Assembly: GCF_026914265.1 (NCBI RefSeq)
Contig: NC_069135.1
Location: forward strand, 8,945,001 to 9,009,000
Direction: 5' to 3'
Length of the DNA: 64,000 nt
DNA from: Mya arenaria
Lineage: Eukaryota; Mollusca; Bivalvia; Myida; Myidae
Part shown: one piece after another, positions 1 to 26,507 of the stretch
Numbering within the stretch: the stretch's first letter is position 1
Layout: every line of letters begins with the position of its first letter
Program-made: the position numbers and the translations under genes
Notes under the pieces: model-generated
The model's database searches: none
Told to the model about the DNA's origin: nothing
Seen by the model: only the letters and a program-made list of their open reading frames with translations

Positions 1-3000
1 TCTGTGTGCTGTGACGACGAGGAATTGCGACAATCAAGAAATAATGGGGACGATTGCTGCTGTGGAAATACAACAATGAATACTGCCAATGAGGTGTGTT
101 GCATTGATACGCCGCAGACGAGCTTTGGTCCTATGACTAAATGTTGTATGCGGGAAAGTTATGATCCTCTAGAGGAAATATGCTGTGACGGAAATAGCCT
201 TCGTGAAAAGAGGAACTCTTCTGATAACTGTTGTTGTGGATCAACGACCATGAACACTAAAGATGAAATATGTTGTGAGGGTGTGCCTGTACCTAGATAT
301 GGCACAAATACTCAATGTTGCCATAATGAGAGCTATGATGCGGATAATTACTTGTGTTGTGAATTCCATACTGAAATGCTGAGTCTTGTCAGCACAATAA
401 AGAAAAGAAACCAAAACGATGATTGCTGTTGCGGTTATACAACTATGAACACACAGGATGATATTTGCTGTGACAGCATTCCACGAAGCCGTGTCGATGA
501 ATACACATCCTGTTGTGGAAATGAAAGCTTTTCTATGTCGAGCGCCATTTGTTGTGATGGAGAAGTTAGACAAAAGCGATATATACCTGATGACAACTGT
601 TGTTGTGGAAACACAACCATGAATGCGCAGACCGAAATATGTTGTGATGGAATGCCACAATCGTCTTATGATGAATATACGAGGTGCTGCCTTCAACAAA
701 GCTTCGATCCTCGCACACAAATATGTTGTGAAAATAGAGTAATTAACAAAACAGCTGAAGACGATAACTGCTGTTGTGGAGAGAAATCGATCAACACCCG
801 TACAGAAATTTGTTGTGACGGCGTGGTTGTTCAAAATGCAGTTGGTGGTGATAAAGCAAGATGTTGTGGACGAGTTAGTTATAACTCTGACAATGCACTC
901 TGTTGTAACATGACAGTCATTATAAAAGATGGAGAAAATGACGATTGCTGCTGTGGTAGCACAACTATGAATGCAGAAAACGAGGTATGCTGTGATGGCG
1001 TTTCTCCGCAACCTAAATTTGATGGTAGTACATTATGCTGTAATCAAGAAAGCTTCAACCCAAAGACAACTTTATGTTGTTCAGAAAGTCTTGTTAAAAA
1101 AAATGACGAAGATGATGACTCCTGTTGCGGTTCTGCACCAATGAACTCGGATTCAAATATCTGCTGTAACGGGGTTGTTTGTGACGGAAATATAAAGTCT
1201 CATGATTGTTGTGGCGAACAATCATATAACATTGAATCAGAAATATGTTGTTTCGATGAAAACATAAGGACAATCGCGGTATCTGGTGATAATTGTTGTT
1301 GTGGAAATACAACAATAAACACAGTGGACCAGATTTGCTGTGAAGGGGTGCCACAGGATAAGGTTGCAGATGATGCTACAAAATGTTGCGGAAAAGAAAG
1401 CTACGACCCAGACAGCGGGATATGCTGTGACAGAAATGTTGTTCCTAAACGGAACCGCATAGATAATTGGTGTTGTGGAAATACAACATTTGATACGACG
1501 AAAGAGGTTTGTTGCATGGATACACCACAACAGTCATACGGGGATGAAACAAAGTGTTGCGTACGAGAAAGCTACAATTCCAAGCATTATATCTGTTGTG
1601 ACGGTGACAGTATTCGTAAAAAGGAAAATGACGAAGATAATTGTTGCTGTGGTGATATAACAATTAATACTGAAGAGGATGTTTGTTGTGACGGCCATAG
1701 ACGTCCAAAGAAAGGCAAATCTACAAAATGTTGTCATCATGAAAGCTACGCTGAAAGTGAACACGTTTGCTGCCGAGACGGAACACTAAATGACCGTAAG
1801 AATAAAGACGATGATTGTTGTTGCGGAAACACCACAATGAATGCAAACGAACACATTTGTTGCGATGAAAACGTACAGGAATTGGTTGGTGGACCGTACA
1901 CATCATGCTGCGGAAAGCATTGCTTTGATACTCGGTCACATATATGCTGTCACGATGAAATTCGGCCAAAAGCTAAGGTTCCAGATGACAATTGTTGTTG
2001 TGGCGACACAACGATGTTTGCTCCCGGTGAAGTATGCTGTGACGGAATGCCTCAACCATCATATGGGCCGGAAACCAGATGTTGTTTGCAACAAAGCTAC
2101 AATCCAGCAACTCAATTATGTTGTTTGAATAAGGTAATTAACAAAACAGATATAAATGATAATTCATGTTGTAACGGATTTCCAATGAACACTGCCAACC
2201 AGATATGTTGTGAAGGAATAACTGTGCAACCTGCCCCAAGCGATAAATACAGATGTTGTGGTCTTCACAGTTATAATTTTGAAACACATCTTTGTTGTGA
2301 CGATGAAATAAAACTTAAACGGAACGAAAGCGATAACTGCTGCTGTGGGGCCACAACTATGACCACTCCTTACGAAGTTTGTTGTGACGGATGGATGCCA
2401 CAAGAAAGCTTTGGACCGAATACAATGTGTTGCAACTTAGAGAGTCCAGTAAGTTACAATCCTTCTAAGTTTCTCTGTTGCAATGAAACTATGTTAGAAA
2501 AAGAAGATTCTTCCGATGATTGCTGTTGTGGCCAGGACACATACAACACAGCAACACACATGTGTTGCGATGACACGGTACATGAAGGAACGCCAGCTAC
2601 ACACGATTGTTGCTTTGGTGAATCTTATAATTTATTAGACCAGATTTGCTGCAACGATGGTGTGCGAGATAAAAAAGATAAAAAAGATAATGGCTGCTGC
2701 GGAAATACAACTTTCAATACATATGAGGAGATGTGTTGCATTGATACACCCCAAGAAAAGAAAGGAGATTTTCCGAATTGTTGTGGCCGTGAAAGCTACA
2801 ACACAGAAACAAGCATTTGTTGTGATAATATGGTAAGGGGGAAACGAAATAACACAGATGACTGTTGTTGTGGGGATACATCAATAACTGTTGCAAATGA
2901 GATATGCTGCGATAATATCCCACAGCCTAAGGAAGGTCCATTAGCGAAATGTTGTGGTAAACAAAGTTATGACTCCATTAACTACATATGCTGCGATGAT

Positions 3001-6000
3001 GAAAATATATTGCCAAAGGAACATATCGATGATAATTGTTGTTGTGGTTCCGAAACAATGAACACCATTGCACAAATATGCTGTGAGGGTAAACCGCAGG
3101 ACCGAAAAGGACCGAACACACAATGCTGCCACAAAGTCAGCTATGATGCCGACAACTTTTTGTGTTGTAGTAGAGGCGATATAAATCAAAAGAAACATAT
3201 AGATGACAACTGCTGCTGTGGTCATACGACATTCAATGCAGTATCTGAAATTTGTTGTAGTGGAAGTCCAGACGAATTAGTAAACGGCAACAAGACGTCG
3301 TGCTGCGTAGGTCACAGTTTTGACACTGTTTCGCAGATGTGCTGCAATAATGAGATAAGAGATAAAGCAGACACAGATGATGATTGTTGTTGTGGAGATA
3401 CAACCATGAAAGCGGGCAGTCATCTATGTTGCGACGGTATGCCACAACCGTCATACGGCCCAACGACACAGTGTTGTCTCAATCAAACTTTCAACCCACT
3501 AACTCAGATATGCTGTAAAGGTAAAGTAATCGATAAAACAAAACAGTCTGACACATGGTGTTGTGACGGTAAATCTTACAATATTGATGAGGAAATGTGC
3601 TGTGAAGGAAAACACATTGTTATCAAAGATGGTGGAGAATACAGCCGTTGTTGCGAACAGGGGGCTTTTGACTCAAGAATGGAAATGTGCTGTGGTAAAA
3701 CTATTATAACTAAAAACAACACAGAAGATGATTGTTGTTGCGGTGACAAAACAATGAATACAAAGAGTCAGATATGTTGCCAAGGTACAGAACCTCAACC
3801 CAAAGAAAATGATAGATATAAATGTTGCGGACTTGTGAGTTACGATTCAAAGATGTTCATTTGCTGCGATGGCAATGTCCGCGAAAAGAACAATCCGTCA
3901 GACGACTGCTGTTGTGGCGATAACAATACGTTTAAGACGCAAACTCAAATATGTTGCATGGGTAGTCCCCAGAAAGGCCAGTACAATACGCATGACTGTT
4001 GTGGTAGCGTGTCATTTGACTTGGATAAGGAAATATGCTGTAACGAAACTATTCGATCCAAGGATCCCGGTGACAACGCCTGCTGTGGGGGTATAACCAT
4101 GAACACTGTGGATGAAATATGTTGTGAAGGCGTACCACAGCCTTTGTTTGGTGATGGTATCACTGACTGTTGTGGTTCTGTCAGTTATAACAAAGTTACA
4201 GGCATATGTTGCGACAATTTTGTCGTTGTTCAAAAAGCCGACGAGGGAGACAACTGCTGTTGCGGAAATACAACTATCAATGTCGACCTTGAAGTTTGTT
4301 GTATGGGAGTACCTCAGCCGAAATTCGGAGACAAGACAAGTTGTTGTCTGTACCAAAGCTATGACTTTGACCAAAGTATTTGCTGTGACGGAGGACAAGT
4401 ACGCCAGAAAAAGCATCCGGACGACAACTGCTGCTGTGGTGAAACAACAATCAACACAAACACAGAAATATGTTGTCACTTCAACCCGGCACCGTTGCAA
4501 GGTCCAAACACTCATTGCTGTCACAATGTGAGCTATGATTTTGATGACATCATATGTTGCAGTAGAGAAAAAATGAACAAAAAAAGGAAAAATGATGACA
4601 ACTGCTGTTGCGGCGACACTTCTATGAATACTGATGACGAAATATGCTGTGACAACACACCACAGGACAAAAATGGAAACGCAGCTTGTTGTGGAAAAAC
4701 AAGCTTCGATCAAGATAAACAACTTTGTTGCTACGACGGAGTCAGAGACAAGGCTAATGATGACGATAATGTATGTTGCGGGGATACTACTACTAGCTCG
4801 CAGACACATGTTTGCTGTGACGGAATGCCTCAAGGTTCTTACGGCCCGGGCACAAGATGCTGTCTCAATCAGAGCTACAATCCTGTCACACAAATATGTT
4901 GTGAGGGTGTTATTATTGACAAAACAAATAGAAGCGATGACTGTTGCTGCGATATGAAATCATATAATACGGCAAATCAGATATGTTGTGGAGGGAAGTA
5001 TGTTCGTGAGGCTGTTGGTGGTGAATCAGCGAGATGTTGTGGGTATGATAGCTACAACTCGGACACGAATATGTGCTGTAATCAGAATATTGTAGTTAAA
5101 CAGAAAGATAAAGATAACGCCTGTTGTGGAAATACTACCTATGATTCAGATAATGATATTTGTTGCGATGGCATAATTCCACAACCTTTAAAGGGAACCG
5201 AAACGAGATGCTGTAGTTTAGAAAGTTATAACACAGTCACGCACGTCTGCTGCAACCATGAAATCGTGCAGAAAAATGGGACAGACGACGACTGTTGTTG
5301 TGGTGACACAACGATGGATTCTGAAACAGAAATATGTTGTGATGGCGTTATCCAGCCTGGTCCACTCGATAACTACGATTGCTGCTTACAAAAAAGTTTT
5401 AACTTGAGAAACCAAATATGTTGCAATAGTGAAGTAAGGGATAAGAGAAAGCGGACGGATGACTGTTGCTGCGGAAGTAAAACAATGAATGCAGACGAAG
5501 ATATATGCTGTGAAGGAGAACCGCAGTCGGCCACTGGCGATAAATACGCTAAATGTTGTGGAAAGGAAAGTTACAATTCTTTCACAGGTATATGTTGCGA
5601 ACCAGGTAACATAGTTCAGAAAGCAAACACTAGTGACGACTGTTGCTGTGGAAATACCACTTTCTACACACCCGCGCAAGTATGCTGCATTGACACTCCA
5701 CAGCCCTATAATGGTCTATTTACAAAATGCTGCTTACGCGAGAGTTATGATTCCTCTGAATATATATGCTGTGATGGAAGCGATTTAATGAAAAAACAAA
5801 ATCCTGATGACAACTGTTGTTGTGGTGATTCAACTATAAATACGGAAACCCAAGTATGCTGCGAAGGGGCGCCGCAAGACAAAGTTGGGCCGAACACAAT
5901 GTGCTGTCACAAAACAAGTTACAACCCACGCAGATACATATGTGATGGTTTTAAGTTAGTACTTAAAAGGAATGAAAATGACGACTGCATTTGTGGATCA

Positions 6001-9000
6001 GCAACGTTCAACACAGAAAATGAGATATGTTGTAATGAAATACCACGTCCACGAATTGACGGAGCTTTTTGCTCTTGCTGTGGAAGCGACAGTTATTCCA
6101 CACGTTTACAGATTTGCTGTGAAAACGGTGTTCGCGACAAGGTTGATGAAAATGACAACTGTTGCTGTGGTTCATCAACATTAAATACCGCCTTGCAGAT
6201 GTGCTGCAACAACAACCCTCAAGACTTGGTAGCATCTGATAACACAATGTGCTGCGACACTACAAGTTATGATCCATCTTCACATATTTGTTGCTTCCGT
6301 GAACTGAGGCTTAAAAGCAACTATTCCGACAACTGGTGCTGCGGTGAGGAAACGTATGACACAACCACAGAGATATGTTGTGACGGTAAATACCCTCAAG
6401 AAGCTGTCGGTGGTTTGTCCAGAGCCCGATGTTGTGGGGCCGTTTCTTTTGATTCTCGGGACTATATGTGTTGTGATAGGAGCATAATAGAAAAACGTAA
6501 CAGGAAAGACAATTGTTGTTGTGGCGATACAACAATGAATACGGAAGATGAAATTTGCTGCCAGGGCCTATATCCTAAACCGAAGGTTGGAGGTGATAAT
6601 ACAAAATGCTGTGAGAAAGAAAGTTATGATGCGTCTTCGCATATATGCTGTAACGAACGTGTCATTGAGAAGGATGATGAAGATGATGATTGTTGCTGTG
6701 GAAATAGAACAATGAATCCAACAAAGAAAACATGTTGTTCTGGTTATGTTCAAGACTTATACGTTGACAGTGAAACTTCATGTTGCGGGCAGGTCAGTTT
6801 CGATACTGTGAATCAATTGTGTTGTGATGGAGTCGTCAGACAAAAGACAGATACTAATGACAATGGTTGTTGTGGTGACACTACATATAACATTGACACA
6901 GAATACTGTTGTAGTGGAAAAGTTGTTGACAGAGTTGGTGGAGAAATGTGTGATTGTTGTGACGGAAAACCTTATGATATATCCTCGCATATCTGTTGTG
7001 ATAAAGATATTGTTATAAAGGCTGCTGCTGATGATGATTGTTGTTGTGGCTCAACGACAATAAACACCGTTTCTCAGGTCTGCTGCAATGGTATGCCAGC
7101 AGACAAAGTCGCTGGACCACAAACCATGTGCTGTGGAATGCAAAGCTTTGACCCAAGTGAAATGGTGTGTTGTGAAGATTACGAACTTCGAAAGCTTGGA
7201 AATCCAGGCGACAATTGGTGTTGTGGTGACTCACAGACATTTAATACAAGAGATGATATTTGCTGCGAAGGTGTTCCCCATGTACGAGCGTCAAACGGGC
7301 TTACGAAATGTTGTGGAAATGACAGCTATATATTTGAAAACTTCCTCTGCTGTGATATGAATACACTTATTGCAAAGGAAGAAAAAGACGATGATTGCTG
7401 TTGTGGATCGACAACTCTTAACACAGCGTCACAAATATGTTGCGAAAATAACCCACAAACATTGTATGGACCTAGAACAACGTGTTGTAGAGATCAAAGT
7501 TTTGACATGGATACTCATGTGTGCTGCAACGGAGACATACGAATAAAATCTAATCCTGAAGATGATTTCTGCTGTGGCAACAAAACATTTAACACAGGAA
7601 CACAAATCTGCTGCATAGACATGCCTCAAGGAAGAAAAGGACCAAATACTATGTGTTGCGGAAGAATTTCATATGACCCTGATCAAGATATGTGCTGCAG
7701 AGGGGATTTAATTCCAAAACCCGACAAGGATGATAACTGCTGTTGTGGAAATACAACAATCAATACTAAGAAACAAATTTGTTGCAATGATTTCCCTCAA
7801 ACCTCTTACGGGGACGAAACAAAATGCTGTGGTTTTGAGAGTTATAACGCTAAAAGGTTCATTTGCTGCGGCATTGAAGTCGTAAAGAAACGTTCAGAGG
7901 ACGATAATTGCTGTTGTGGAAAGAACGACACTTACAATACAGACAGTGAAGTTTGTTGTCAAGGAATGTTTCCAAGACCTGCCATGGCTGGAAGAGACAC
8001 GAGGTGTTGCGGTATGCTGAGCTATGATCCATCCATCGAAATGTGCTGTGAAGGTCAGTTAAGAAACAAAACAGATATTGATGATAACTGTTGTTGTGGT
8101 GATACTACGATGGATATTGGTGTTCAGATATGTTGCAGCGGCGTACCGCAGCCATTATACGGAGAAAAGACTGCTTGTTGTGGAACTACATCATATGACA
8201 GTGAAACAAACATGTGCTGTGGAAATGGCATCCGGACAAAGAAGGATATTGACGACGATTGTTGTTGTGGATCAATGTCGACTATTAACACAGACTCGGA
8301 GATCTGCTGTAATGGAAATTCTCAAGTATTGGTTGGTGGCAAGGAGTACACAGATTGTTGTAAAGATATAAGTTTCGATATGCGAGAATATTTATGCTGC
8401 AGTGGACATCTTGTTCCAAAAACGGACATCGGAGACAATGCATGCTGTGGAAACACAACATTTAATACCAACAGCCAAATCTGCTGTGATGGTGTTCCAC
8501 AGAACTCTGTCGCAGGGGATGAGACTATGTGTTGCGGATATGCTAGTTATGATCCTGTAACAATGCTTTGTTGTAAGGCGGGAGATTTAAGAATGAAGCA
8601 AGACGAAGATGATAATTGTTGTTGCGGTGAAACGTCTACAATAAATACGGTTAGACAAGTATGTTGCCAAGGTACCACACCCCAGCCTAAGTATTCAGAT
8701 AATACGAAATGTTGCGGTGAAATAAGTTACAATGATGACACGCAAATATGCTGCGATATGATTGTTTACATGAAGAACAGCAACTCTGATGATACATGTT
8801 GTGGTAACAACGCCATAACGGCAGACAAACAAATATGCTGTAATCATGTCACGCAGCCAGGTGGAAAGTTTATGACTTGTTGTGGGGAAAATAGTTACAA
8901 CACTAAATCTGAAATGTGTTGTGACGGCGAAGTTCGTCCAAAGAAAAGTAGTTCAGATAACTGTTGCTGTGGAAATACTACTGCGGACCTCGAAAAGGAG

Positions 9001-11880
9001 GTTTGTTGTATTGATATGCCACAGCCCATCAGAAATGATGAAAAGGAATTCACAAGATGCTGTTTACGAGAGAGTTATGACATAAGGACACAAGCGTGTT
9101 GTGAAGGCGAAGTCGTTAAAAAGGACGCAATTGATGCAAATTGCTGCTGTATTAAGAAGCCCTTTAACCCACAAACACAAATATGTTGCCAAGGCGAGTA
9201 TGTCGAAGAGATACAAGGCACCCCACAGACAACAAAATGTTGCGGCAAAAAGAGTTACAATTCTATTGAGCAAATTTGTTGTGACGATATGAAAATAAAA
9301 ACCAAAGTGAACGAAACAGATAACTGCTGTTGTAACAAAGTAACATACAATACCCAGACCCAGGTATGCTGCGACGGAACAACACCACAGCCATCGTACG
9401 GACCTGACACTCAGTGCTGCGACAAAGTCAGTTTCGATCCAAACTCATATGTCTGCTGTGGCAAGACAGTTATCATGAAAAAGTCACCAGAAGACGATTG
9501 CTGTTGTGGAATTTCAACAATTGATACTGAGACAGAGATATGTTGTGAGGATACGCCACAGCCTGTTGTGAACGACAAGGAATATACATCTTGTTGCTTT
9601 AAAAAGAGTTTCGACACTAGAGACATGCTTTGCTGTGAAGATGGTCTAAGATCAAAGCGGAATGAGAGCGACGACTGTTGTTGTGGTCTGACGACGTATG
9701 ATACTGATGAGGAAGTATGTTGCGAAAATAATCCTCAACCAATACAAGGAGACTTTGAAAAAACACGATGCTGTGGCAACCAGAGTATTAATTCTGACAA
9801 CGCCTTATGCTGTGACGGCGAAATGATTGGCAAAACCAACCCAGAAGACAACTGTTGCTGTGGCCAATGGGCAATCAACACGAAAACACATGTATGCTGC
9901 AATGGTGTTCCTGCTCCGATTCGAGGTGATGTTACTTTGTGCTGTGGCACAGAAAGCTATTCACCAGAGAAACAAGTATGCTGTGATGGATATTATCTTA
10001 GAAATAAAACTTCGTCGGATGATAACTATTGTTGTGGCGAGTCATCAACATACAACTCTGAAAACGAAATATGTTGTGAGGGTATACCTCGTGAGTTGGT
10101 TAACGGCAAGTTTACATCATGCTGTGATGATGAAAGCTATGATACTAAAACTCAGATGTGCTGCTCAGGCATTGTCGTGCAAAAGAATAACAAGAACGAT
10201 GATTGCTGCTGCGGAAACACCACCTATAACACACAAAGTGACATCTGCTGTAATGGAATGCCAAAATCCCCACGCGGTGATATTGAATATGCATCTTGTT
10301 GTGGCGATGAAGCTATGAATACCGAATTGGACCTGTGTTGCGATGGAGAAGTACGCAAAAAGGAAAATGAAAGCGATGATTGTTGTTGCGGAAAAACAAC
10401 GATGGACTCCGATAATCAGATATGTTGTGACGGAAAGCCTCAGCCTCGTGAAGGCGGGGATGCCTGTGAATGTTGTTACGGAGAAAGCTATAATTCCAAC
10501 ACAGAGATGTGTTGTAGAGATGGTGTTCGCACGATGGATAATGCCGATGACAACTGCTGCTGTGGTGACTCAACAATGAACACAAACACACATGTATGCT
10601 GTGATGGAAATCCGCAACCAAAATACGAACAAAATACTAAATGTTGCGGAAGTACAAGTTACGATGGTGATACGCATTTCTGTTGTCAGAATAATGAGAT
10701 TGTGGAAATAACTGTCGATGATCCAAACTGGTGCTGTGGTGGTGTAACTATGAACACAGGTAATCAAATGTGTTGTGAAGATGTTGCTTGTACAAACTAC
10801 GGACCAAGTACGAGTTGTTGTGGTAAACAGTGCTTCGATAGCAATAGTTTCATCTGCTGCGATGATGAAATTGTCGGGAAAGATGACGACAATGATAATA
10901 TGTGCTGCGGAAATAGAACGTTCAACCCAGTAACCAAGATTTGTTGCATTGATATGATTCAAAATCGTCCAGCTGGCCCGAATACACGATGCTGTGGAAG
11001 ATATCCATTCGATCCTGCAACAGAGATTTGTTGCGACGATTTGACTATTCTTCCAAAGACAAGCGTGGATGATAACTGTTGTTGTGCAAACAAAACATTC
11101 AATACGGCCACAGAAATGTGTTGCGAAGGCGAGCCTGCTCCTCTTACCGCGAATATAGCGTATATGCGATGTTGCGGAAAGGAAAGTTATGATAAGCGTA
11201 CCTATATCTGCTGTGAGGGAATAGTGCGACCGGCAGACGCTGGGGAGGCGAACACTCGTTGTTGTGGAAATATTGCATTCGACATAAAAACACATGTCTG
11301 CTGTGTAAATGAATTACGAGCGGTTGACAAGCCGGGTGATTTAGCATGTTGTGGAAACGGCACTTTCAACCCAACCACAGAGATATGTTGTCCCCATGAG
11401 CCTTTCGATGTTTCTCAACCAAAACTTGGGGCATCAAATACAAGATGTTGTGATGGCTGTAGTTACGATCCAAGCATCGACATTTGCTGTGATGGGGTGA
11501 TTCAGCACGCTTGGCTGGGACTACGGACGCTCTGCTGTGGACAAAGAAGTTACAATCCAGAGAGAGGAATTTGCTGCAATGGAACCATGATAGAAAAAGT
11601 TGTTCCTTGGGACGACTGCTGCTGTGGTGACAAGGTATTTGACAGTTCAAGACAGCTGTGCTGTAATGGGCGCGTGCAGAGCAAGTGTGGTGTGCACAGT
11701 AAGTGTTGCGACAAGACCAGCTACGACCACGACTACAATCTTTGTTGTGACGGCATTGTCAAACCCAAATATTACGGCTATAACTCGTACTGCTGCGGGA
11801 AGCACGTGTTTGATCCGAGGATGGCCGTCTGCTGTGGCGACTATGTGAGGTGGCTGGTGCCTTACCTAGAAAAATGGTAG
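1..11880 (+). CDS. Giant galaxin-like di-cysteine repeat protein (5' partial)
   Basis: The frame is open from the first base to the TAG at 11878-11880, about 3,959 codons with no intron; the true start lies upstream of the window. The protein is a tandem of bipartite units of about 58 residues. Each unit runs: CCCG (or CCG) with a following NTT/TTMNT stretch, then ICCDG, then PQ..YG..T.CCG, then ESYD/SYN, then ICCDG, then a basic linker (VR.K/KR) and an acidic DD before the next CCCG. Paired cysteines in short repeats with SYD/SYN between them are the hallmark of galaxin, the coral skeletal matrix protein, and its relatives in molluscs and other animals. By length there are about 68 units, far more than in described galaxins. 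I infer a secreted, disulfide-dense matrix or adhesive protein; no signal peptide is visible because the 5' end is missing. The last units (from about 11400) are more divergent, and the chain ends in a short hydrophobic tail with two Trp. The family call is firm; the function is inference. Confidence 0.85.
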   Translation, partial: SVCCDDEELRQSRNNGDDCCCGNTTMNTANEVCCIDTPQTSFGPMTKCCMRESYDPLEEICCDGNSLREKRNSSDNCCCGSTTMNTKDEICCEGVPVPRYGTNTQCCHNESYDADNYLCCEFHTEMLSLVSTIKKRNQNDDCCCGYTTMNTQDDICCDSIPRSRVDEYTSCCGNESFSMSSAICCDGEVRQKRYIPDDNCCCGNTTMNAQTEICCDGMPQSSYDEYTRCCLQQSFDPRTQICCENRVINKTAEDDNCCCGEKSINTRTEICCDGVVVQNAVGGDKARCCGRVSYNSDNALCCNMTVIIKDGENDDCCCGSTTMNAENEVCCDGVSPQPKFDGSTLCCNQESFNPKTTLCCSESLVKKNDEDDDSCCGSAPMNSDSNICCNGVVCDGNIKSHDCCGEQSYNIESEICCFDENIRTIAVSGDNCCCGNTTINTVDQICCEGVPQDKVADDATKCCGKESYDPDSGICCDRNVVPKRNRIDNWCCGNTTFDTTKEVCCMDTPQQSYGDETKCCVRESYNSKHYICCDGDSIRKKENDEDNCCCGDITINTEEDVCCDGHRRPKKGKSTKCCHHESYAESEHVCCRDGTLNDRKNKDDDCCCGNTTMNANEHICCDENVQELVGGPYTSCCGKHCFDTRSHICCHDEIRPKAKVPDDNCCCGDTTMFAPGEVCCDGMPQPSYGPETRCCLQQSYNPATQLCCLNKVINKTDINDNSCCNGFPMNTANQICCEGITVQPAPSDKYRCCGLHSYNFETHLCCDDEIKLKRNESDNCCCGATTMTTPYEVCCDGWMPQESFGPNTMCCNLESPVSYNPSKFLCCNETMLEKEDSSDDCCCGQDTYNTATHMCCDDTVHEGTPATHDCCFGESYNLLDQICCNDGVRDKKDKKDNGCCGNTTFNTYEEMCCIDTPQEKKGDFPNCCGRESYNTETSICCDNMVRGKRNNTDDCCCGDTSITVANEICCDNIPQPKEGPLAKCCGKQSYDSINYICCDDENILPKEHIDDNCCCGSETMNTIAQICCEGKPQDRKGPNTQCCHKVSYDADNFLCCSRGDINQKKHIDDNCCCGHTTFNAVSEICCSGSPDELVNGNKTSCCVGHSFDTVSQMCCNNEIRDKADTDDDCCCGDTTMKAGSHLCCDGMPQPSYGPTTQCCLNQTFNPLTQICCKGKVIDKTKQSDTWCCDGKSYNIDEEMCCEGKHIVIKDGGEYSRCCEQGAFDSRMEMCCGKTIITKNNTEDDCCCGDKTMNTKSQICCQGTEPQPKENDRYKCCGLVSYDSKMFICCDGNVREKNNPSDDCCCGDNNTFKTQTQICCMGSPQKGQYNTHDCCGSVSFDLDKEICCNETIRSKDPGDNACCGGITMNTVDEICCEGVPQPLFGDGITDCCGSVSYNKVTGICCDNFVVVQKADEGDNCCCGNTTINVDLEVCCMGVPQPKFGDKTSCCLYQSYDFDQSICCDGGQVRQKKHPDDNCCCGETTINTNTEICCHFNPAPLQGPNTHCCHNVSYDFDDIICCSREKMNKKRKNDDNCCCGDTSMNTDDEICCDNTPQDKNGNAACCGKTSFDQDKQLCCYDGVRDKANDDDNVCCGDTTTSSQTHVCCDGMPQGSYGPGTRCCLNQSYNPVTQICCEGVIIDKTNRSDDCCCDMKSYNTANQICCGGKYVREAVGGESARCCGYDSYNSDTNMCCNQNIVVKQKDKDNACCGNTTYDSDNDICCDGIIPQPLKGTETRCCSLESYNTVTHVCCNHEIVQKNGTDDDCCCGDTTMDSETEICCDGVIQPGPLDNYDCCLQKSFNLRNQICCNSEVRDKRKRTDDCCCGSKTMNADEDICCEGEPQSATGDKYAKCCGKESYNSFTGICCEPGNIVQKANTSDDCCCGNTTFYTPAQVCCIDTPQPYNGLFTKCCLRESYDSSEYICCDGSDLMKKQNPDDNCCCGDSTINTETQVCCEGAPQDKVGPNTMCCHKTSYNPRRYICDGFKLVLKRNENDDCICGSATFNTENEICCNEIPRPRIDGAFCSCCGSDSYSTRLQICCENGVRDKVDENDNCCCGSSTLNTALQMCCNNNPQDLVASDNTMCCDTTSYDPSSHICCFRELRLKSNYSDNWCCGEETYDTTTEICCDGKYPQEAVGGLSRARCCGAVSFDSRDYMCCDRSIIEKRNRKDNCCCGDTTMNTEDEICCQGLYPKPKVGGDNTKCCEKESYDASSHICCNERVIEKDDEDDDCCCGNRTMNPTKKTCCSGYVQDLYVDSETSCCGQVSFDTVNQLCCDGVVRQKTDTNDNGCCGDTTYNIDTEYCCSGKVVDRVGGEMCDCCDGKPYDISSHICCDKDIVIKAAADDDCCCGSTTINTVSQVCCNGMPADKVAGPQTMCCGMQSFDPSEMVCCEDYELRKLGNPGDNWCCGDSQTFNTRDDICCEGVPHVRASNGLTKCCGNDSYIFENFLCCDMNTLIAKEEKDDDCCCGSTTLNTASQICCENNPQTLYGPRTTCCRDQSFDMDTHVCCNGDIRIKSNPEDDFCCGNKTFNTGTQICCIDMPQGRKGPNTMCCGRISYDPDQDMCCRGDLIPKPDKDDNCCCGNTTINTKKQICCNDFPQTSYGDETKCCGFESYNAKRFICCGIEVVKKRSEDDNCCCGKNDTYNTDSEVCCQGMFPRPAMAGRDTRCCGMLSYDPSIEMCCEGQLRNKTDIDDNCCCGDTTMDIGVQICCSGVPQPLYGEKTACCGTTSYDSETNMCCGNGIRTKKDIDDDCCCGSMSTINTDSEICCNGNSQVLVGGKEYTDCCKDISFDMREYLCCSGHLVPKTDIGDNACCGNTTFNTNSQICCDGVPQNSVAGDETMCCGYASYDPVTMLCCKAGDLRMKQDEDDNCCCGETSTINTVRQVCCQGTTPQPKYSDNTKCCGEISYNDDTQICCDMIVYMKNSNSDDTCCGNNAITADKQICCNHVTQPGGKFMTCCGENSYNTKSEMCCDGEVRPKKSSSDNCCCGNTTADLEKEVCCIDMPQPIRNDEKEFTRCCLRESYDIRTQACCEGEVVKKDAIDANCCCIKKPFNPQTQICCQGEYVEEIQGTPQTTKCCGKKSYNSIEQICCDDMKIKTKVNETDNCCCNKVTYNTQTQVCCDGTTPQPSYGPDTQCCDKVSFDPNSYVCCGKTVIMKKSPEDDCCCGISTIDTETEICCEDTPQPVVNDKEYTSCCFKKSFDTRDMLCCEDGLRSKRNESDDCCCGLTTYDTDEEVCCENNPQPIQGDFEKTRCCGNQSINSDNALCCDGEMIGKTNPEDNCCCGQWAINTKTHVCCNGVPAPIRGDVTLCCGTESYSPEKQVCCDGYYLRNKTSSDDNYCCGESSTYNSENEICCEGIPRELVNGKFTSCCDDESYDTKTQMCCSGIVVQKNNKNDDCCCGNTTYNTQSDICCNGMPKSPRGDIEYASCCGDEAMNTELDLCCDGEVRKKENESDDCCCGKTTMDSDNQICCDGKPQPREGGDACECCYGESYNSNTEMCCRDGVRTMDNADDNCCCGDSTMNTNTHVCCDGNPQPKYEQNTKCCGSTSYDGDTHFCCQNNEIVEITVDDPNWCCGGVTMNTGNQMCCEDVACTNYGPSTSCCGKQCFDSNSFICCDDEIVGKDDDNDNMCCGNRTFNPVTKICCIDMIQNRPAGPNTRCCGRYPFDPATEICCDDLTILPKTSVDDNCCCANKTFNTATEMCCEGEPAPLTANIAYMRCCGKESYDKRTYICCEGIVRPADAGEANTRCCGNIAFDIKTHVCCVNELRAVDKPGDLACCGNGTFNPTTEICCPHEPFDVSQPKLGASNTRCCDGCSYDPSIDICCDGVIQHAWLGLRTLCCGQRSYNPERGICCNGTMIEKVVPWDDCCCGDKVFDSSRQLCCNGRVQSKCGVHSKCCDKTSYDHDYNLCCDGIVKPKYYGYNSYCCGKHVFDPRMAVCCGDYVRWLVPYLEKW
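226..5994 (+). repeat. Higher-order repeat of 8 galaxin units (about 1.39 kb)
   Basis: Within the coding region the 58-residue units themselves repeat in blocks of eight, about 464 residues. Two diagnostic units show it. The unit with CC followed by His (CCH then N/K/H and SYD) has its first Cys codon at 316, 1729, 3124, 4516 and 5902, spacings 1413, 1395, 1392 and 1386. The unit starting Met-Pro-Gln, with CCLQQ/CCLNQ and then VI.KT, has that ATG at 652, 2047, 3439 and 4825, spacings 1395, 1392 and 1386. Beyond about 6 kb the block order is harder to follow by eye. Confidence 0.75.
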
Positions 11881-14030: not shown

Positions 14031-17000
14031 TTATATATGCATGTATATAAAACTACACAATAATGTGTTTATTTCAGTTGTGTCATTTAGCAATGATACT
14101 TTATTAAACTCTACAACAGGAGCCGAACCTGTTTCCCTATTCTGCAAAGCTGTTCTCCTAGTGGGCGTATAAAGGTTGTTAGGTGCAAGAGTATTTGGGG
14201 CGCTGGTTGACAAACACGAACACGAGCACGCTGAAAATGATGAACTTTGTTAAGTCATGTAAATGAAAATAAACAATGATGTATGATAAACAATTGAAAG
14301 TTGGGTCAGCTAAATTAGTGGTTATGTTATTGACGATGAAATTCATATTGTCTTGTTCATCATCTCGAATGGCGGACGTGACTGGGTCGATTTCGTTTAT
14401 TAGGCGTAAAATACTCGTGTTGCTCCGGAGCTTGAACGATAAACTTTAAGCAGGTTATAAAATTCCTTGGAATAGACTTATCAACTAGCTATGGATAGAA
14501 CATGCCGAAAACTGAACAACCAAGGTGACAAATTAAGTGAAATTTTCACCGAAGCTTTTAAGTAATGGCTTGATACAGTTACCATCTTCTTTTTAAATAC
14601 CCTATTGTTGTTCAAAACAAAAACTTCAATGCGGTCTTGACTTAGCAGTTTAATCAACTTTACAGAAGCATTGCATTTGTTTTCTTAAAACAACGCCAAA
14701 AGGTTTTTCATCCATTTGACTTTTTGAAGAAAACAGTGCAATTGCTTAGTGGAGTATAGTGTCAAATTGTTCAGACGATACATAAATTACCAGTTAGTCT
14801 TCGTTGATGCTTGCTGTGTACTTTGAGCCACACACACACGGTACCGGCACATATCAAGCAAAAGGCGCCAATCAGAATCATGTACTGCGCGTTACTGGAC
14901 TCGTGAACAATGGGTACAGTCTCACTGCTATATTCTATGACATCATCTACAAAAAAGTTCACTTTAAAAATTCGAGATAATGAATCGGCTAAAACCTGCC
15001 AGGCGGTCGGGCGATTGTTTGTGTTTTAAAGCTGCACTCTCGTATATTCACCATTTTTAAAACTTTTTTATTTTTTGTCTTGGAAAGAGCAAATTTTTGC
15101 GTTAATATCTGCAAACCAGTGATATAAGACTGCTGACAAAAATCAGATAGTAGATTTTCGTATTTCTGTTTGAAAAGTAATGTTTTATGGCCTAAACCGT
15201 TACTAACGGTTTAAGAAAAATGCATTAAACATTAATTTTTGAACTTAAATATAAAAATCTGCCATCTGATATTTTGTCAGCAGTCTTTTATCCCTGGTTA
15301 CCATGGAATTTCGCAAAAATTGGCTAGTTTCAAGACAAAAAATAAAAAAGTTGTCAAAACGTCGAATCTGTGAGAGTGCAGCTTTAAACATTCTTGCGTA
15401 AAGTATGTTTTCCGTGTCATAAATACATCATTTTTTCCGATCTTTATTACACTTTGTCAGAATATTTTTCGGCATGATATTTAGGATCAGTGTGAAGATG
15501 GGCCAAAAACTATTTCATTAGGTCAAATATTAAGACAAACTTGTGTGTTAAATTTCTCCTTCCTTTAAGAAATTCATCAGTGCTCATTCAATTAAGCTTA
15601 ATCTCTAAAAGTTGAGTCAGAGTATTTCTCAGCATGATATTTTGGATTAGTGCGAATATAAGTCATCTCCGGTCGAAAACTAGGTCACTTTCTCAAATAC
15701 CCCCCCCCCCATAAATTGTTAACTATATTGCGTTCATAAATTCAACAGTGTTTAAAATCCAACCTTCATGAAACTTGGTCAAACTATATTTTAACCAGTG
15801 TGAATATGTTAAAGTCGAGTCAAAAACTGGGTCACTCGGTAAATGTTAAGACAGAAATTTATGATAATTCCTATTCTTTTCATAAATTCAACAGTTCTTT
15901 TTCAAGAAACTGAGCTCAGCATGAAATTTAGGACCAGTATGAAAATAAGTCATCTCGGGTCAGAATTTAGTTCGGACCAATGAAAATAGTGGTCCTCTCG
16001 AGGTAAACACAAACATACACATACAAATAATTTGGGGTATGTTAGGAAAGTCCTGCTGTGAAACAACACTTATTAAAAGTACAATACGCATATAAAGTAC
16101 AATACGCATATAAAGTACAATACGCATTACGCATATAAAAAACAATACGCATATAATCAAGTTTCAATGTTTACCCACATACGATAGCTACGTGGCATCA
16201 ATTTCCCCAGCTAGAAACTGCGCGAAATTGTCGCTGATAACGTTTAACCTGTACACACATCATATTTTTTTTCAACATTAGAGTCAAATGTGTTAAACAT
16301 AATAATGCATTAGAATACCTGGGTCATGATAGTCAGTTGTGTGTATCCGGTGCGTGAGGTCGGTCTCATAGTCGAGGAAATGATCCTGTCCACACCGCAT
16401 GGTCACCTGACGGGAACAATCGTGAACAGGATAAACGAAATCACTGTCTGACGGACGAACATGCATATTCCAATTACTTTTTTATATATATATATAACAT
16501 ATATAATTAACGTAATTATGGCGTTACTAAATTACATTACTTAGAAAAAATTGCCATATGACGTACAAAAAACTTTTTCTCTACTGTCAATATAAGCCAA
16601 TATTATTGCCCTCATAAGAATATCCTTATAACCTTGCTTTACAGTTCAAGAAATGATCTTAAAGTAATGAAAAAATACTAAATAATCTGATTCTTACCTT
16701 CGCATAGAAGTCAGTACCCCTGACACTATTCAACCTTGTAAGGACGCTGAATTCTCCATTGACAACCCGGTCAACTGAATGCTCCACGAGGGGTTTAACA
16801 CTGGCAACCATGGCATCGTCAAACACGGCAACACTGACATGGGAGTAGGGGTTGATATTCTGGGCACGAATGTGAAATTCTACAACTTCCCTTGAGATCA
16901 AAAGTGCACGGAAATACATGCGGACCCTTTGCTTGTTTTGTCTGAGCCAAACATGGCATGCATCTGTCAAACACATTTAGCTGAACAGAATATGTTTTTA

Positions 17001-19517
17001 TTGTAACGGATGGAAAACAAAATAATAACAGATACTACGTTAACTATTTTATAATTCAAAGGTATTAATACCCGCATGTTACTACCACAGGGACAGGGTG
17101 CGTTGTTATGTGACACCCCAGTAACCCCCACCCCTTATCAATTACCAAAAAGGCGAACATATTCCCCGACTTATAATAACTGTAACTAGCACTTTATCAC
17201 ATTAAATATATTTAGTACTAGTATTCTATAATCATCATTTGTAAGCCTAGGAATGTGTTTACCTTTTTGGTAATTGATAAGAGGGGGATATGGGTGACAA
17301 CGCCTCCTGCCCTGCTAAATACTGTTACTGCAGCTAAATATTCAGTACATTTTCGTTAAGAAAAAAGAACATTTCTCCTATTTAACTGTCAAAGAAGATA
17401 GGTAACCGTCAGGGTTATTATTTTAGTTACAATTATCATCGGCAAACTTAAAACGAATCAGAGCACTTCGGAAATTTATCACCGAAAACGGATTTAAAAA
17501 CGGTTTATAATGTCAGAATTCTTCGCATTAAGTACGGTGCAAGAAGATTTTAATTTAGCTGTTACTGAAGCGTTAGGAATCTTGATTATTTATGGAAAAA
17601 AAAAATCCACTTAGCTTGGACTCAATTTGAACGTAGAAACGCTACAATTTATTATTATTATTATTATTATAATGTTTTATTAATTTTACGAACTACTTTT
17701 ACTAATGCACCGGAATGGATCCGAGGCTCGTCGTATGGCGGAGATGACCGAAGTGGAATTAAAACAAAAACGCTATATATAAACAATACATTGGCTTAGG
17801 AAACTACCGAAAATATGTACTAAAAAAGATTAAAAAATGTCAGAACCAAACTCTGATGTCGGATAGATATTACAAATAAGGGTGCATGTGTACGTCGGGA
17901 AACCGGAAACAAACCTTGTTCTTGTATCATATTGGTAAATTAATTATTTCTCGAAAATAAGCAAAGCACATCATACCAAGCCCAACGTTCCTATGTGATA
18001 GCCTGTGGACTGTACAAGACTTGACACAGCTGATTGGCTGGAAATTGCAGTCACATGACCCTAAATCTACTCTCCATAAGGCCATGTTTAAGTCAGGGTG
18101 GTTGTGAGGTAGAATGATACAGTTGTTCTTGGCAGGATCATTCTGTAAACAGAAACAGTGTGACGTTATGCTATTCAATCTTTTAAGCGAAATGGTATTT
18201 AAAGAATTTCGAACAAAACCATAGCATTTTTCTTGTAATTGAAGATATAAGAACCATACAGTGAATTGTTGATTTATTTAAAAAAAAAGAATGATTGAAA
18301 CAAATTTCTTTTTGAAAATTACTCATATGATACCATCAAATAAGATTTGTTTTGTATTTACCTCTGACATCAAAGGAAGAACTACAAACGCGATCTGCCC
18401 ATCAGTGGTCTGTCCATCAGTTATCTGCTCATTATTGGCCGTCGGCCCATCAATTGTGTAGGTAAATCCAGTCAGGTACTTCCTTCCCCTGGATTCTGAA
18501 TATTATAAGACACGGTTATGTCGTTTAAATGTGAAAGTTATCCTACAAAACAGCATGAACTAGATACAAGCGGAAAGCAAGGCTCGTCTTTTTGTTCGTC
18601 GAAAAAGGCATTATTAAACTATAATGAATGGCAGTGTTACGGGCTTTTCAGCACTGTGCTTATTGAAGCTGGCAACATCTGTGAATATTTTGAATTATTT
18701 TAAATAACCAGTATTTAAGCTTTTGTACGCCGAAGCGCAAATCACAATACTTGGAGTTCGTTACTTCGGAAAAGAACACACAAATACGAGTGTTAACAAT
18801 GAAGGCAGATATTCTGACGAAGATAAAGGGTGTATGTGCCATCCAGACCTTAAACAACGTATTTTTGATAGTTGACCCAGTGAACAAATATAACCAACAT
18901 TTTAGTGCCGTCCACCACGAGGAAAATGTGAAAACTACTTACAATTGGTATTTTTTATATTTTATCTGGACACCTTATTGTCCATGTTGAAAGTAGTTTA
19001 TCCATTTCATTCATTTGTCATATTTTCCTAAATTCCTACCATTATTGTAGATAATTTGAACATGAACTTAATAGAGCATTTAAAGCGCCAGCATGTCCTG
19101 ATTCTGTGTATTTGTGTGTACGTGTGTGCGTGCGTGTGTGTGTGTGTACGTGTATGTGTGCGTGCGTGCGTGCGTGCGCGCGCCCGCGCGCGCGTGCGTG
19201 TTTGTACGTGTACGTGTTTTGTTGAATATTTAAGCCAATAGTCTAATTTTTTCTTAAGTTCTTAGATCATACCGTTTCATAAACATAGAATAAAATGTGC
19301 CTTCTAGATTGATAGCGACATCGGTCTTGTGACCCATGCATTATTTAACAGCATTCATATTTGAACTTGACTGGAAAAACAGACTATAAAATATGACATG
19401 TATCTAGAATACTCAAACTAGTATTTTTCTTCTTCTTCTTCTTATATTTGACACCCTTACCTAGTTTTATACCTAAAATGCCAAAATAAATTCGTACCAC
19501 TTTTCATGATATTGCTG

Positions 19518-19561
<44 letters not shown>

Positions 19562-20582
19562 AAATATCGACGATGCACTGTGGACAGCAGGAAATCACAA
19601 ACGCTTATCAATAGCACTTTACCCAAACTTACCTAAAAAGTCAAAATCGAACACCAAATCAGTAAAACTGATCATTTGTTTACGAATTAACTAGAAAAGT
19701 GAGTGAGCGCATAAACATTTAACGCCAATGCTTTACTTGTCCTTTAATAATTGTCTAGGTAAACTGCACTGACAATTTGGTGATCCATACCAGGAGCCAG
19801 CCCAGTCCAGGAGAGGTTTACAGCCAATGTCCAGTGGTCAACCTGCCACATGATGCCCTGGTACTGGACGCTGATTGTGGTTGATGAACTTTCATCTTCT
19901 GCCATCAGTGACCAGGGAGCAAGCTGCACATGCTTAAAACAGTGTGACATAAGCTTTTAAATCCTCGTATTTCGACTCATTGTTTTATTGTTCATATCAT
20001 ACAGCGAACTCAAGATATATTTTTCTACATCCGACACGACCTAGGTTAAAACTTAAAAAAAAGTTCTATTTATATTTGCAAAAAAGTATAGCCTTAAGAT
20101 TTCTCTAACATTTGACGTAGTGACCCAGTTTTGCCAAACTTTATCCATTTACAGTCGTGATATATATCTTATAAATATAAACATTCTGGCCAGGTTTGAA
20201 AATAAATTTTGATAAATAATTTTACCTAGTGAACTACGTTTGACCAATTACATGAGGTCACTTGTCAATATATGATGTGACTTACTTCAAAAGAAGCGCA
20301 ACCCATCCGTGAAGACAAACATTACCATAAAGTTTCATAGAGAAAGAAATTATACATTTGGCATTGATAAATGAAAAATGTGCATGTTAAGAAAAAAATC
20401 CAAGTGTTGTATTTATCTGAGTTTCGATAAATACTAGAAAAAGTTGTTATATTAAAAATCAAAATATAATAATATTCTAATGTTTTAGTGTTTAAATAAA
20501 TACACGTTTCAAAGAAAAACAACTTACATCCAAATCCTTCAGCTGTAAACACTTCTCAGCACATATTGGTCCATGGAGTTCA
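14031..20582 (-). CDS. Single-pass membrane receptor, IL-17-receptor-like ectodomain
   Basis: Minus-strand exons inferred from splice sites and reading frame: 20528-20582, 19791-19923, 18362-18495, 17977-18142, 16698-16963, 16319-16447, 14791-14946 (transmembrane) and 14031-14230 (tail and stop). Phases agree at every junction except 16698 to 16447, where a base is unaccounted for, so a small exon or border is missed. The first exons hold a cysteine-bearing stretch, then a fibronectin-III-like segment (VNLSWTGLAP, then KYLTGFTYTIDG). The exon at 16319-16447 has P, DC, R and a later C in the spacing seen just before the membrane in IL-17 receptors. The exon at 14791-14946 has a hydrophobic helix (YMILIGAFCLICAGTVCVWL) followed by basic residues, as in a type I receptor. 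No signal-peptide exon and no cytoplasmic SEFIR domain was found. The family assignment is tentative; a membrane receptor is well supported. Confidence 0.45.
15025..15388. mobile_element. Fold-back MITE, about 364 bp
   Basis: The element starts TTTAAAGCTGCACTCTC and ends with its exact reverse complement. The arms stay complementary with mismatches almost to the centre, where TAAACCGTTA / TAACGGTTTA face each other near 15193-15212. There is no coding capacity. Its ends include TTTAAA, so the target duplication cannot be separated from the terminal repeat. Confidence 0.75.
15440..15905. repeat. Degenerate tandem repeat, period about 130-165 bp
   Basis: Three to four diverged copies share words such as CAGCATGATATTT.GGAT.AGTG, AAGTCATCTC.GGTC and AAAACT.GGTCACT. 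The left border of the 6.9 kb duplication falls inside the last copy, at about 15906. Confidence 0.55.
17088..17314. mobile_element. Palindromic MITE with CAGGG ends (copy 1)
   Basis: About 227 bp inside a receptor intron. It starts CAGGGACAGG and ends CCTCCTGCCCTG. The inner arms are strongly complementary: CTTATCAATTACCAAAAAGG near 17139 pairs with its reverse complement near 17262. The total arm is about 78 bases with mismatches. No clear target duplication and no coding capacity. Confidence 0.65.
19104..19218. repeat. Alternating purine-pyrimidine TG/CG tract (copy 1)
   Basis: About 115 bp almost wholly of TG, CG and TA steps, including a run of CGCGCGC. It lies in a receptor intron. Such tracts favour left-handed Z-DNA and replicate unstably. 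Confidence 0.85.
19519..19558. repeat. (AT)n microsatellite (copy 1)
   Basis: About 40 bases of uninterrupted TA repeat in a receptor intron. Confidence 0.9.
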
Positions 20583-22369
20583 CTAATAACTAAATGCGCA
20601 ATGAGCATCACCCTTAACATTTCATCAAAACTTCAGAACCTTATGTAACATATCGTTTTATTATTGATAGAGTTATGTTGGTAAGCAGTAATACATCTTT
20701 TTACAGAAAATATTCAGGGTTATTGAGTCATTTTAAAATTGCGCAATTTCGGGATTAAAGAAAATTAAAGGGGTAGTATTCATGCAAAACATGCTTAAGA
20801 TGTTTACATCCTAAGCTCTTAACAAGAGCATTGCGAAGGGAACTCCAACGTTGGTCTGTTGTTGTTGTTGTTTTAGTCTAAAAGAGGGGAAAAACTTGAC
20901 ATTAAAACCAAAGGTTAGATAGGCTCGATACATGCGAGCAGTATCTCTCGCAACATGAATATCGATGGCCTCACTTCCACATATCGAAGCTACAAAATCA
21001 CATGTTTTCAGTAGGCTTTTAGTATTTAATCTTTGGTAACACATTTTTAATAAAAAAAAATGCCGAATTTACATTTTTGTAGTAACAATTTCTCGGCACT
21101 TTTGCTTCTCTGTGAAATGTCAAATCATTACTCGACATTTTGAACACATGATGCAACATCATTTTCTCATTGGACTATTTACTCGGCATTTTGCATTTAG
21201 ATGCGGCTCGCCTTTATGATTTTAGTTATCTAAAAAAATCCGAAACAGAACGAAATGCAGCTTCGGCATTTTGAAGTGACGCCATCGATATGTAATTACA
21301 TTTGAATATCCTGAACGGTTTAAGCTATGGTAAATAGTATTTCTTTCGTACGGCAACGCCGAAAACGACACAAAAGACAATAACAATTCGGGTTTTCTAT
21401 GAAAAACAAACAGTGGTCGAATGCACGTGTCACAGTATTCATGAAATGATTGTTTTATGGAACACTAGGTGACATAACTATGAACATTCGAGTGCTTAAT
21501 AAATAAATAAAAACAAATAAATATGTTTTCTTTGTTAATATATTTATCTACTTAGTGATTAATATATTTTACTATTTTAGCATACTTTTAGAATTGCTAC
21601 TCACAAAGTCTTACAGTCCCTTTGAGAAATCATAGACCATGTCCAAGGGTATCCAAGCAACACCTAGTCACTGGTTCAGATCGTTGAGCACAGCGCAGAT
21701 AAAAAAGTGGCGATAACAATTTACGATGTAAAACATTAAGATCACAGTTTAAACACCACATTCAAATATCTTCAGTGAAAATTATGTTTGTGAAAATGTC
21801 TTGTTTAAGTTGTTTTACTTGACTAGTCAATGATACAATATCACATGAAGTCTCATCTGAGCTTAAGCTGTTTTTGGATCAAATAAAAAAGAAATATCAA
21901 TTTTGCAATCTTTCATTTTTCATGAAGAATGTTAAAACATTAAACCTTATTTTCAAAATTCATTCAAGCCTTGCGATAAATCTCATAAACTTCTTTGATA
22001 CAAATGTCATACAAAATTCAATTTTCTAAATATATTAAGGCTTTGTTTAAAAATATCAGCCACAGAGTGTGTATACTTAAATTTTCATCTCTTGCTAAAA
22101 CAGTGTGTTTGAATCTATGAGCATTTTTCGTAAAGGTTCATTTTACTTAGGTCTGAACAAAGCTAAAGTTAGCAGAATTGCTATTCGTATATATGCATAT
22201 TGTCCAGGGGCCGTACCAGAGTTGGGCGTTATAGGCGTGCATGTCGCGGCAAATAAAGGCGTTCACCCCCCCCCCCCCCTTCCCCCGCCCATGAACCCCG
22301 ATGTGACGAAACCGGGGTTTTTAATGATTGACAAGAGATTCAGTTTCAACTGATTTCTTCTATTTTTGT

Positions 22370-22851
22370 AACAGAGACCTTGACCTTGAAATTTCGTCAC
22401 AGTACGTCAACCATAACTAAAGTTATTTAGTACCAACTGGTGATCAATTTCTAGTTACAGTGACCTTGACCCTAGGGGGCCAAAAGGCAATCCAAAGAAA
22501 GGTCTCCATAAACTTGTCTTATATACCAAGTTTGGTCACACAATGTCAACCACTACATAAGGTATTGAATACTATCCATTTTTCCATTTTTAGCAACAGT
22601 GACTTTGACCATAACTCTTTGGGCCAAAAACATAATCTCATAAAAGGTCTCTGGAAAAATCTTCATATACACTAAGTTTGGTCGCAATATGTCGACCCTT
22701 ACTTAAGTTATTCAATACTAACCATTTTTCTATAAATAGTAACTTTGACCTTGATCCTAGAGGCCTCAAAAGCAATCCCATGAAAGATCTCCATAAACTC
22801 TTCCAATATACCAAGTCTGGTCACTATATGTCAAACCTAGCTAAAATTATT
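22370..22851. repeat. Degenerate tandem repeat, period about 143 bp (copy 1)
   Basis: Diverged copies carry the words GTGACCTTGACC, GGGCCAAAA, AAAGGTCTCCATAAAC and AAGTTTGGTC. The T(G/T)ACC words recur near 22461, 22604 and 22747. The right edge of the duplicated unit falls in it. The counterpart in copy 2 is about 29317-29794. Confidence 0.6.
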
Positions 22852-23264
22852 GAAACTGAGCTCAGCATGAAATTTAGGACCAGTATGAAAATAAGTCATC
22901 TCGGGTCAGAATTTAGTTCGGACCAATGAAAATAGTGGTCCTCTCGAGGTAAACACAAACATACACATACAAATAATTTGGGGTATGTTAGGAAAGTCCT
23001 GCTGTGAAACAACACTTATTAAAAGTACAATACGCATATAAAGTACAATACGCATATAAAGTACAATACGCATTACGCATATAAAAAACAATACGCATAT
23101 AATCAAGTTTCAATGTTTACCCACATACGATAGCTACGTGGCATCAATTTCCCCAGCTAGAAACTGCGCGAAATTGTCGCTGATAACGTTTAACCTGTAC
23201 ACACATCATATTTTTTTTCAACATTAGAGTCAAATGTGTTAAACATAATAATGCATTAGAATAC

Positions 23265-26200: not shown

Positions 26201-26463
26201 TAAGTTCTTAGATCATACCGTTTCATAAACATAGAATAAAATGTGCCTTCTAGATTGATAGCGACATCGGTCTTGTGACCCATGCATTATTTAACAGCAT
26301 TCATATTTGAACTTGACTGGAAAAACAGACTATAAAATATGACATGTATCTAGAATACTCAAACTAGTATTTTTCTTCTTCTTCTTCTTATATTTGACAC
26401 CCTTACCTAGTTTTATACCTAAAATGCCAAAATAAATTCGTACCACTTTTCATGATATTGCTG

Positions 26464-26507
<44 letters not shown>

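Follow-up and report, generated by a model that had tools for sequence, protein, structure and literature searches.

What does a galaxin-like reading frame of almost 12 kb encode in the bivalve Mya arenaria, and by which route could it have become so long? The frame lies at the left end of the stretch analysed here, a window of 64,000 nucleotides (C14:8945001-9009000) from a 1.216-Gb genome of 18 contigs, to which 60 kb of upstream sequence was joined. The Mya genome report gives 1.22 Gb and 17 chromosomes, obtained with PacBio and Hi-C (PMC10663159). Our analysis indicates that the locus is probably a functional gene for a secreted VWA-galaxin rod of about 6,250 residues, with a disulfide-laddered array that was expanded by duplication.

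Translation confirmed that the frame runs through 3,959 codons without a stop and is still open at the left window edge, as a sequence-only reading of the locus had stated. Followed leftward, the frame gains a further 1,932 codons until it meets a TAA ending at window position -5796, which brings the total to 5,891 open codons. The giant exon, E5, measures 17,642 bases up to its stop codon and encodes 5,879 residues from the first methionine, plus one split codon. Given how often stop codons occur elsewhere in the window, the chance probability of 5,891 open codons is near 10^-162, and the remaining five frames of E5 carry 129 to 706 stops each. A chance origin of the open frame is excluded. 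The size of E5 is comparable with that of the largest exons known, such as those of titin and MUC16. The 124 kb of joined sequence that contains E5 is free of Ns, and Tandem Repeats Finder (minimum score 50) detects no DNA-level array in 1-11880. An assembly collapse of near-identical copies is therefore unlikely in this part of the exon.

Table. Features of the giant galaxin gene, in window coordinates (negative positions lie upstream of the window).
Feature	Position	Strand	Description
E2	about -12946 (outside window)		short galaxin exon
VWA exon pieces, four	about -12525 to -8780 (outside window)		between E2 and E3
E3	about -6955 (outside window)		galaxin exon, conserved at two paralogous loci
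E4	about -6122 (outside window)		galaxin exon, conserved at two paralogous loci
E5 exon start	-5761 = C14:8939239 (outside window)	+	splice acceptor ACAATAG/GAATG
Giant last coding exon E5, 3' two thirds	1..11880	+	3,959 codons of galaxin-type repeats, stop TAG 11878-11880
Three units around lost rung, AlphaFold2	5809..6339	+	same predicted ladder, mean pLDDT 97.0, pTM 0.77
Double loss of one rung	5929..5997	+	Cys to Asp at 5944-5946 (second Cys), Cys to Ile at 5989-5991 (first Cys of next cluster)
Three 58-aa units, AlphaFold2	7732..8262	+	predicted beta-hairpin ladder, mean pLDDT 96.8, pTM 0.76
Conserved C-terminal 130 aa	11488..11880	+	55-57% identity in four paralogous giant frames
AATAAA	11929..11934	+	candidate polyadenylation signal, 49 bases past stop codon

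The rest of the window contains features of other kinds. A 6.95-kb tandem duplication (15906-22851 and 22852-29794) has copies that are 99.9% identical over 6,947 columns, and it is either a recent duplication or a haplotype copy in the assembly. Exon-like open frames on the plus strand, at 47623-49383 and 60006-60401, perhaps belong to a neighbouring gene. The segment 60006-60401 (+) encodes an AAA_12 helicase end (Pfam E 9.5e-10) with PDB matches to the UPF1 and NAM7 helicases, 48910-49383 (+) gives a weak ASH match under its cut-off, and 47623-48105 (+) has no Pfam match. Tandem Repeats Finder also reports minisatellites at 46207-46940 (145 bp), 58785-59023 (33 bp), 33564-33835 (56 bp) and 30629-31252 (178 bp).

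The repeats belong to the galaxin family. Pfam Galaxin_repeat (PF24748) scores 2,469.9 bits against the window frame, over 41 stretches and with a curated cut-off of 28 bits, and it is the sole Pfam family matched in the window part of E5. This part contains 269 CC or CCC clusters plus two degenerate ones, which corresponds to 67-68 units and agrees with the roughly 68 units of four cysteine clusters counted earlier. The whole open frame encodes 647 kDa of protein with 15.1% Cys, 10.5% Asp and a pI of 4.5, and it contains 400 clusters (332 CC and 68 CCC). The galaxin-like, acidic and cysteine-dense character, the extreme length and the bivalve origin read from the letters are supported. The clusters are spaced 14.6 residues apart on average, so that four of them make up a unit of about 58 residues. 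Within the array, half-units are similar at even lags, as fits the 58-residue unit, and lags 16, 32 and 48 exceed their even neighbours, which reveals an eight-unit period of about 466 residues. The adjacency of CCC units does not differ from that in shuffles (38 versus 40.7). The frequency of CCC varies among genes, with 68 in E5 (5,879 aa) compared with 26 and 29 in copies of 4,013 and 4,945 aa.

The description "intronless" applies to exon E5 alone, and the gene has upstream exons that include a VWA domain. Comparison of upstream DNA shows that E3, E4 and the start of E5 are conserved at two paralogous loci near 36 Mb, and E2 was found upstream of the giant gene and of one 36-Mb copy. By eye, the splice sites and junction phases of E2-E5 are compatible, which gives the exon order. 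The four VWA pieces were located using the VWA domains of an ordinary Mya VWA-galaxin protein (LOC128215858, here P0033) as queries. Three of them match Pfam VWA singly, with E values of 5e-05, 2.8e-09 and 0.002; the third scores 18.8 bits, below the 23.8 cut-off. The fourth has a BLAST match to VWA tails only. The residues DQSSS, T and D can be recognized by eye in the VWA exons, and we take these D-x-S-x-S, T and D positions to be the metal-site residues. A galaxin-only model of the gene was dropped after the direct VWA search had revealed these exons. At the 36.303 Mb copy, one VWA piece (E 2.3e-04) and a weak one (E 0.30) lie between its E2 and E3. Neither VWA nor E2 was found upstream of the 36.262 Mb copy, and the VWA domain may not be retained by every giant copy.

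A leftward search for a signal peptide, as had been recommended, gave a mixed outcome. No signal peptide is evident where the giant exon begins, and a candidate, MASNVAIVLATLVLYQTC, is present in a separate possible exon at window position -27955, about 22 kb upstream of E5. The phase of this exon fits that of E2. No counterpart of this exon was found near the 36-Mb copies, and its assignment is tentative. The ATGs at -11618 to -11672, which ranked top when 30 kb of upstream sequence was scanned for signal peptides, were discarded because they sit between the first two VWA exons. Without VWA, E2-E5 encode 6,047 residues with 411 clusters; the VWA domain and the signal peptide would add some 200, and the full predicted protein is estimated at about 6,250 residues. 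It would probably consist of a signal peptide, a short galaxin piece, one VWA domain and then about 100 units of 58 residues, nearly all of which would be encoded by the single 17.6-kb last coding exon.

Each end of the array has its match in the C-terminal part of ordinary bivalve VWA-galaxin proteins, and for this reason the gene is a VWA-galaxin gene with a hugely expanded array, not a lone intronless galaxin. These proteins are P0033, Mercenaria LOC123529337 (P0031), Mactra ACF0H5_014351 (P0032) and Dreissena DPMN_129998 (P0034). Like all four, the giant gene combines galaxin pieces with a VWA domain N-terminal to the galaxin region, on the presumption that its exons are transcribed together. 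P0031, P0033 and P0034 contain three or four VWA domains and 9-11 galaxin stretches in 1,643-1,995 aa, whereas the giant gene has one VWA domain, and its array of about 5,900 aa occupies a single exon. Another long protein, Mactra ACF0H5_015127 (P0002, 5,282 aa), appears by eye to owe its length mainly to repeated VWA-galaxin modules and a long charged tail.

The sequence encoded by E3, E4 and the beginning of E5 aligns with residues 1145-1371 of P0033 (1,653 aa) over 226-231 columns at 33-36% identity, and the matching region of P0031, P0032 and P0034 also aligns there, at 33-36%. The last 130 residues of the giant frame align with the last 130 residues of P0031-P0034 at 35-37% identity. Between the two aligned places, P0033 has approximately 150 residues and the giant protein more than 5,600. 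The array would have been enlarged within an ordinary VWA-galaxin gene, through duplication of units and of eight-unit blocks of about 466 residues. Half-unit colinearity with a 36-Mb copy is clear for the first 40-45 half-units or so and fades beyond. When the full length is considered, offsets of 110-118 and 136 half-units, which rest on 32-58 pairs, outrank the main diagonal, which comes only in sixth place, and a shared full-length giant ancestor with this copy is thus not supported.

The gene had been regarded as a single outlier, which proved incorrect. A PF24748 search of the genome, in which 150 of 963 candidates were scored, reveals at least six giant frames on the same chromosome, of 5,891, 4,734, 4,023, 4,028, 4,980 and 6,350 aa. 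Further frames range from 358 to 1,432 aa, and all matches listed fall on C14. In three comparisons of the 36-Mb copies with one another, the best matches of individual tiles have 86-98% identity, and the copies are largely colinear. Two blocks of 466 aa make the difference within one pair, and another pair shows many extra copies of that block.

Five comparisons among the 36-Mb copies, covering 1,680 to 2,820 codons, gave dN/dS values of 0.30, 0.51, 0.24, 0.34 and 0.21. Blocks of 30 codons with at least 75% identity were kept, and 4-29 codons, at most the last partial block, were omitted per comparison. Selection is acting on the paralogs, with dN/dS below 1. Between the giant window gene and a copy the synonymous sites are saturated, and the dN/dS figures concern the paralogs only. 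Di-Cys sites are identical in 1,198 of 1,198 cases over five comparisons (230/230, 242/242, 382/382, 228/228 and 116/116), and the third Cys of CCC is shared in 14/14, 8/9, 13/17, 9/10 and 7/9 in the same five, all of these being upper values because alignments tend to anchor on Cys. Other residues are 90-95% identical among near paralogs. The 116/116 comparison is that of the window gene with a 36-Mb copy (first 870 aa), where 269 of 732 remaining residues (37%) are identical.

A search of 5.8 billion proteins, in the length ranges covered, did not return any giant Mya frame; another Mya protein, P0033, was returned. The window frame as a query retrieved one protein (P0002) and a five-row alignment retrieved six, none of them a giant Mya frame. 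Public annotation may split, merge or otherwise treat these frames.

Chromosome C14 also carries a compact galaxin frame of 776 aa at about 5.545 Mb (minus strand; L024:379-2709). Its repeats measure about 28 residues, and its layout is, by eye, nearer to that of coral galaxin than the layout of the giants is. Used as a query, it retrieved 28 proteins, with cnidarian, echinoderm, annelid, myriapod, mollusc and fish sequences among them. Two frames similar to each other, C14:36240204-36240683 and 36381718-36382179 (both minus), adjoin giant copies and may represent ADP-ribosyltransferase catalytic pieces, which they resemble by eye.

To which fold would such an array give rise? AlphaFold2 was run on two stretches of three units (Table), with 60 of 61 listed segments as alignment rows for 7732..8262 and 30 rows for 5809..6339, all of them repeats of one gene. 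In terms of secondary structure, strand pairs run along the entire 7732..8262 stretch. The models predict a continuous ladder of short β-hairpins, one per di-Cys, as in the galaxin/calcarin fold. No solved structure was matched by sequence (window part) or by fold. The second model, around a lost rung, says no more than that a ladder continues to be predicted at this place, as AlphaFold barely responds to two substitutions.

For galaxins and calcarins, a bond that links the second Cys of a cluster with the first Cys of the following one has been proposed from AlphaFold models (PMC12419799). Lost cysteines provide a sequence-only test of this pattern, which in the literature found otherwise rests on such models. 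Seven giant sequences or parts were compared, with Cys-x-Cys counted as one slot and any lone Cys fewer than 9 residues from another cluster set aside as an extra (18 of 21 in the window gene). A lone Cys is carried by 23 di-Cys slots, one of them being the first residue of a fragment, at the cut. The remaining 22 fall into 11 pairs of neighbours, and in 11 of 11 the replaced residues are the second Cys of a cluster and the first Cys of the cluster that follows. Shuffling the lone state within sequences gave a mean of 1.6 pairs and a maximum of 6 in 2,000 trials, compared with the 11 observed. By eye, all 11 losses fall in one of four rung classes, the one ahead of the unit's DN-CC(C)G hairpin.

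One paired loss lies in the window gene, where the first Cys of the first cluster, the second Cys of the next and an extra Cys before the latter are retained. The other ten lie in the 3,079 aa examined of a gene at 13.80 Mb (C14, minus; L026, L029 and L043) that has a 4,734-aa frame; these ten unit-boundary rungs were all lost as Cys pairs. The loss units of this gene have a mean identity of 0.45 (maximum 0.55), compared with 0.40 (maximum 0.64) for 20 intact units. Judged by these identities, recent block copying does not account for the paired losses; some may share descent, because the loss units are slightly more alike. In 36 other proteins, many of which contain other domains, 280 lone sites include 65 paired events and 150 unpaired ones, and the adjacency is 102 against a shuffle mean of 43.6 and a maximum of 60, a result that is positive but not clean. 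The co-losses indirectly support the proposed bond, in which a cluster's second Cys pairs with the first Cys of the following cluster, and they point to a rung that the ladder can spare.

With this bonding, each unit would form four two-strand hairpins, and the second Cys of each cluster would bond the first Cys of the next to give one long ladder of about 400 disulfides. The third Cys of CCC would be left over, presumably free, and could cross-link adjacent chains. The protein is most likely an extracellular rod, whose VWA end would bind matrix or another ligand via a metal ion, and the rod would give a secreted layer length, stiffness and resistance to proteases.

Several described proteins resemble this arrangement in part. 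Coral galaxin (Galaxea, Acropora) has a repeat of about 30 residues with two di-Cys, is acidic and carries a signal peptide; it differs in being 338 aa long in Acropora, and that account describes no VWA domain (PMC2726143). The RXRR endoprotease motif is reported as a mark of galaxin sensu stricto, the coral clade (PMC6824150), and it (R.RR) is missing from the 5,879 aa of E5 and from 4,945 aa of one paralog. The calcarins of Sycon ciliatum show a hairpin ladder in AlphaFold models, with the first Cys bonded to the second Cys of the preceding hairpin, and have 10-23 di-Cys (PMC12419799), compared with about 400 clusters in the giant Mya frame. Cysrichin of Hyriopsis cumingii is likewise a molluscan galaxin-like protein rich in Cys (14.7%), but it has 163 aa, five repeats and a pI of 8.15 (PMC10045328). 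No report of giant galaxins was found in the openly licensed literature searched.

Where such a rod would be laid down can be weighed from these comparisons. A secreted soft layer, such as periostracum or siphon sheath, mucus, a byssal gland product or an egg coat, is a real possibility that falls short of probable; the length, the possibly cross-linkable extra cysteines and the VWA domain would suit a gel or sheet former. A biomineral matrix protein, secreted by the mantle into the shell like coral galaxin and the sponge calcarins, is a possibility that we hold to be rather unlikely. It would agree with the match to the galaxin repeat family, with a composition near that of Galaxea galaxin (Cys 13.4%, pI 4.53; PMC2726143) and with the short freshwater-mussel galaxin-like protein described from mantle and gill, which takes part in shell layers (PMC10045328); however, galaxin-like proteins are also reported from animals without mineral skeletons (PMC12419799), and our searches include a Nematostella match. 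A part in immunity or symbiosis control, by analogy with the squid galaxin EsGal1, seems improbable. EsGal1 is credited with antimicrobial activity (PMC5216023) and a galaxin probe responds in clam hemocytes (PMC4234419), but both are brief mentions of different galaxins from different species, and a rod of 6,000 aa would be unnecessary for such a role. The Mya genome report includes RNA from mantle, foot, siphon, gill, adductor and hemocytes (PMC10663159).

An origin of the giant frames as decaying relics or as products of the assembly is very improbable. Such an origin would fit their failure to be returned whole from the protein set in the length ranges searched, and the paralog that is without 10 rungs in 3,079 aa examined. 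Against it stand the 5,891 open codons, the dN/dS of the paralogs below 1, cysteine losses that come in pairs and not at random, and the lack of Ns and of near-identical DNA repeats in the window part.

A functional gene for a VWA-galaxin rod is thus the explanation we favour. The search results suggest that giant invertebrate exons may be absent from protein collections. The locus shows, in a real genome, the possible extent of a galaxin ladder and a route to it, block duplication within one exon of a VWA-galaxin gene. As a tentative proposal, which we regard as doubtful, the giant frames would encode a class of VWA-anchored rods with continuous ladders of about 270 to 430 hairpins, in which the unit-boundary rung is dispensable through loss of both partner cysteines and the spare third Cys cross-links the rods into a sheet. 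If this is true, the number of blocks, the paired Cys losses and the frequency of CCC would genetically set the rod length, the number of hinges and the cross-link density, respectively.
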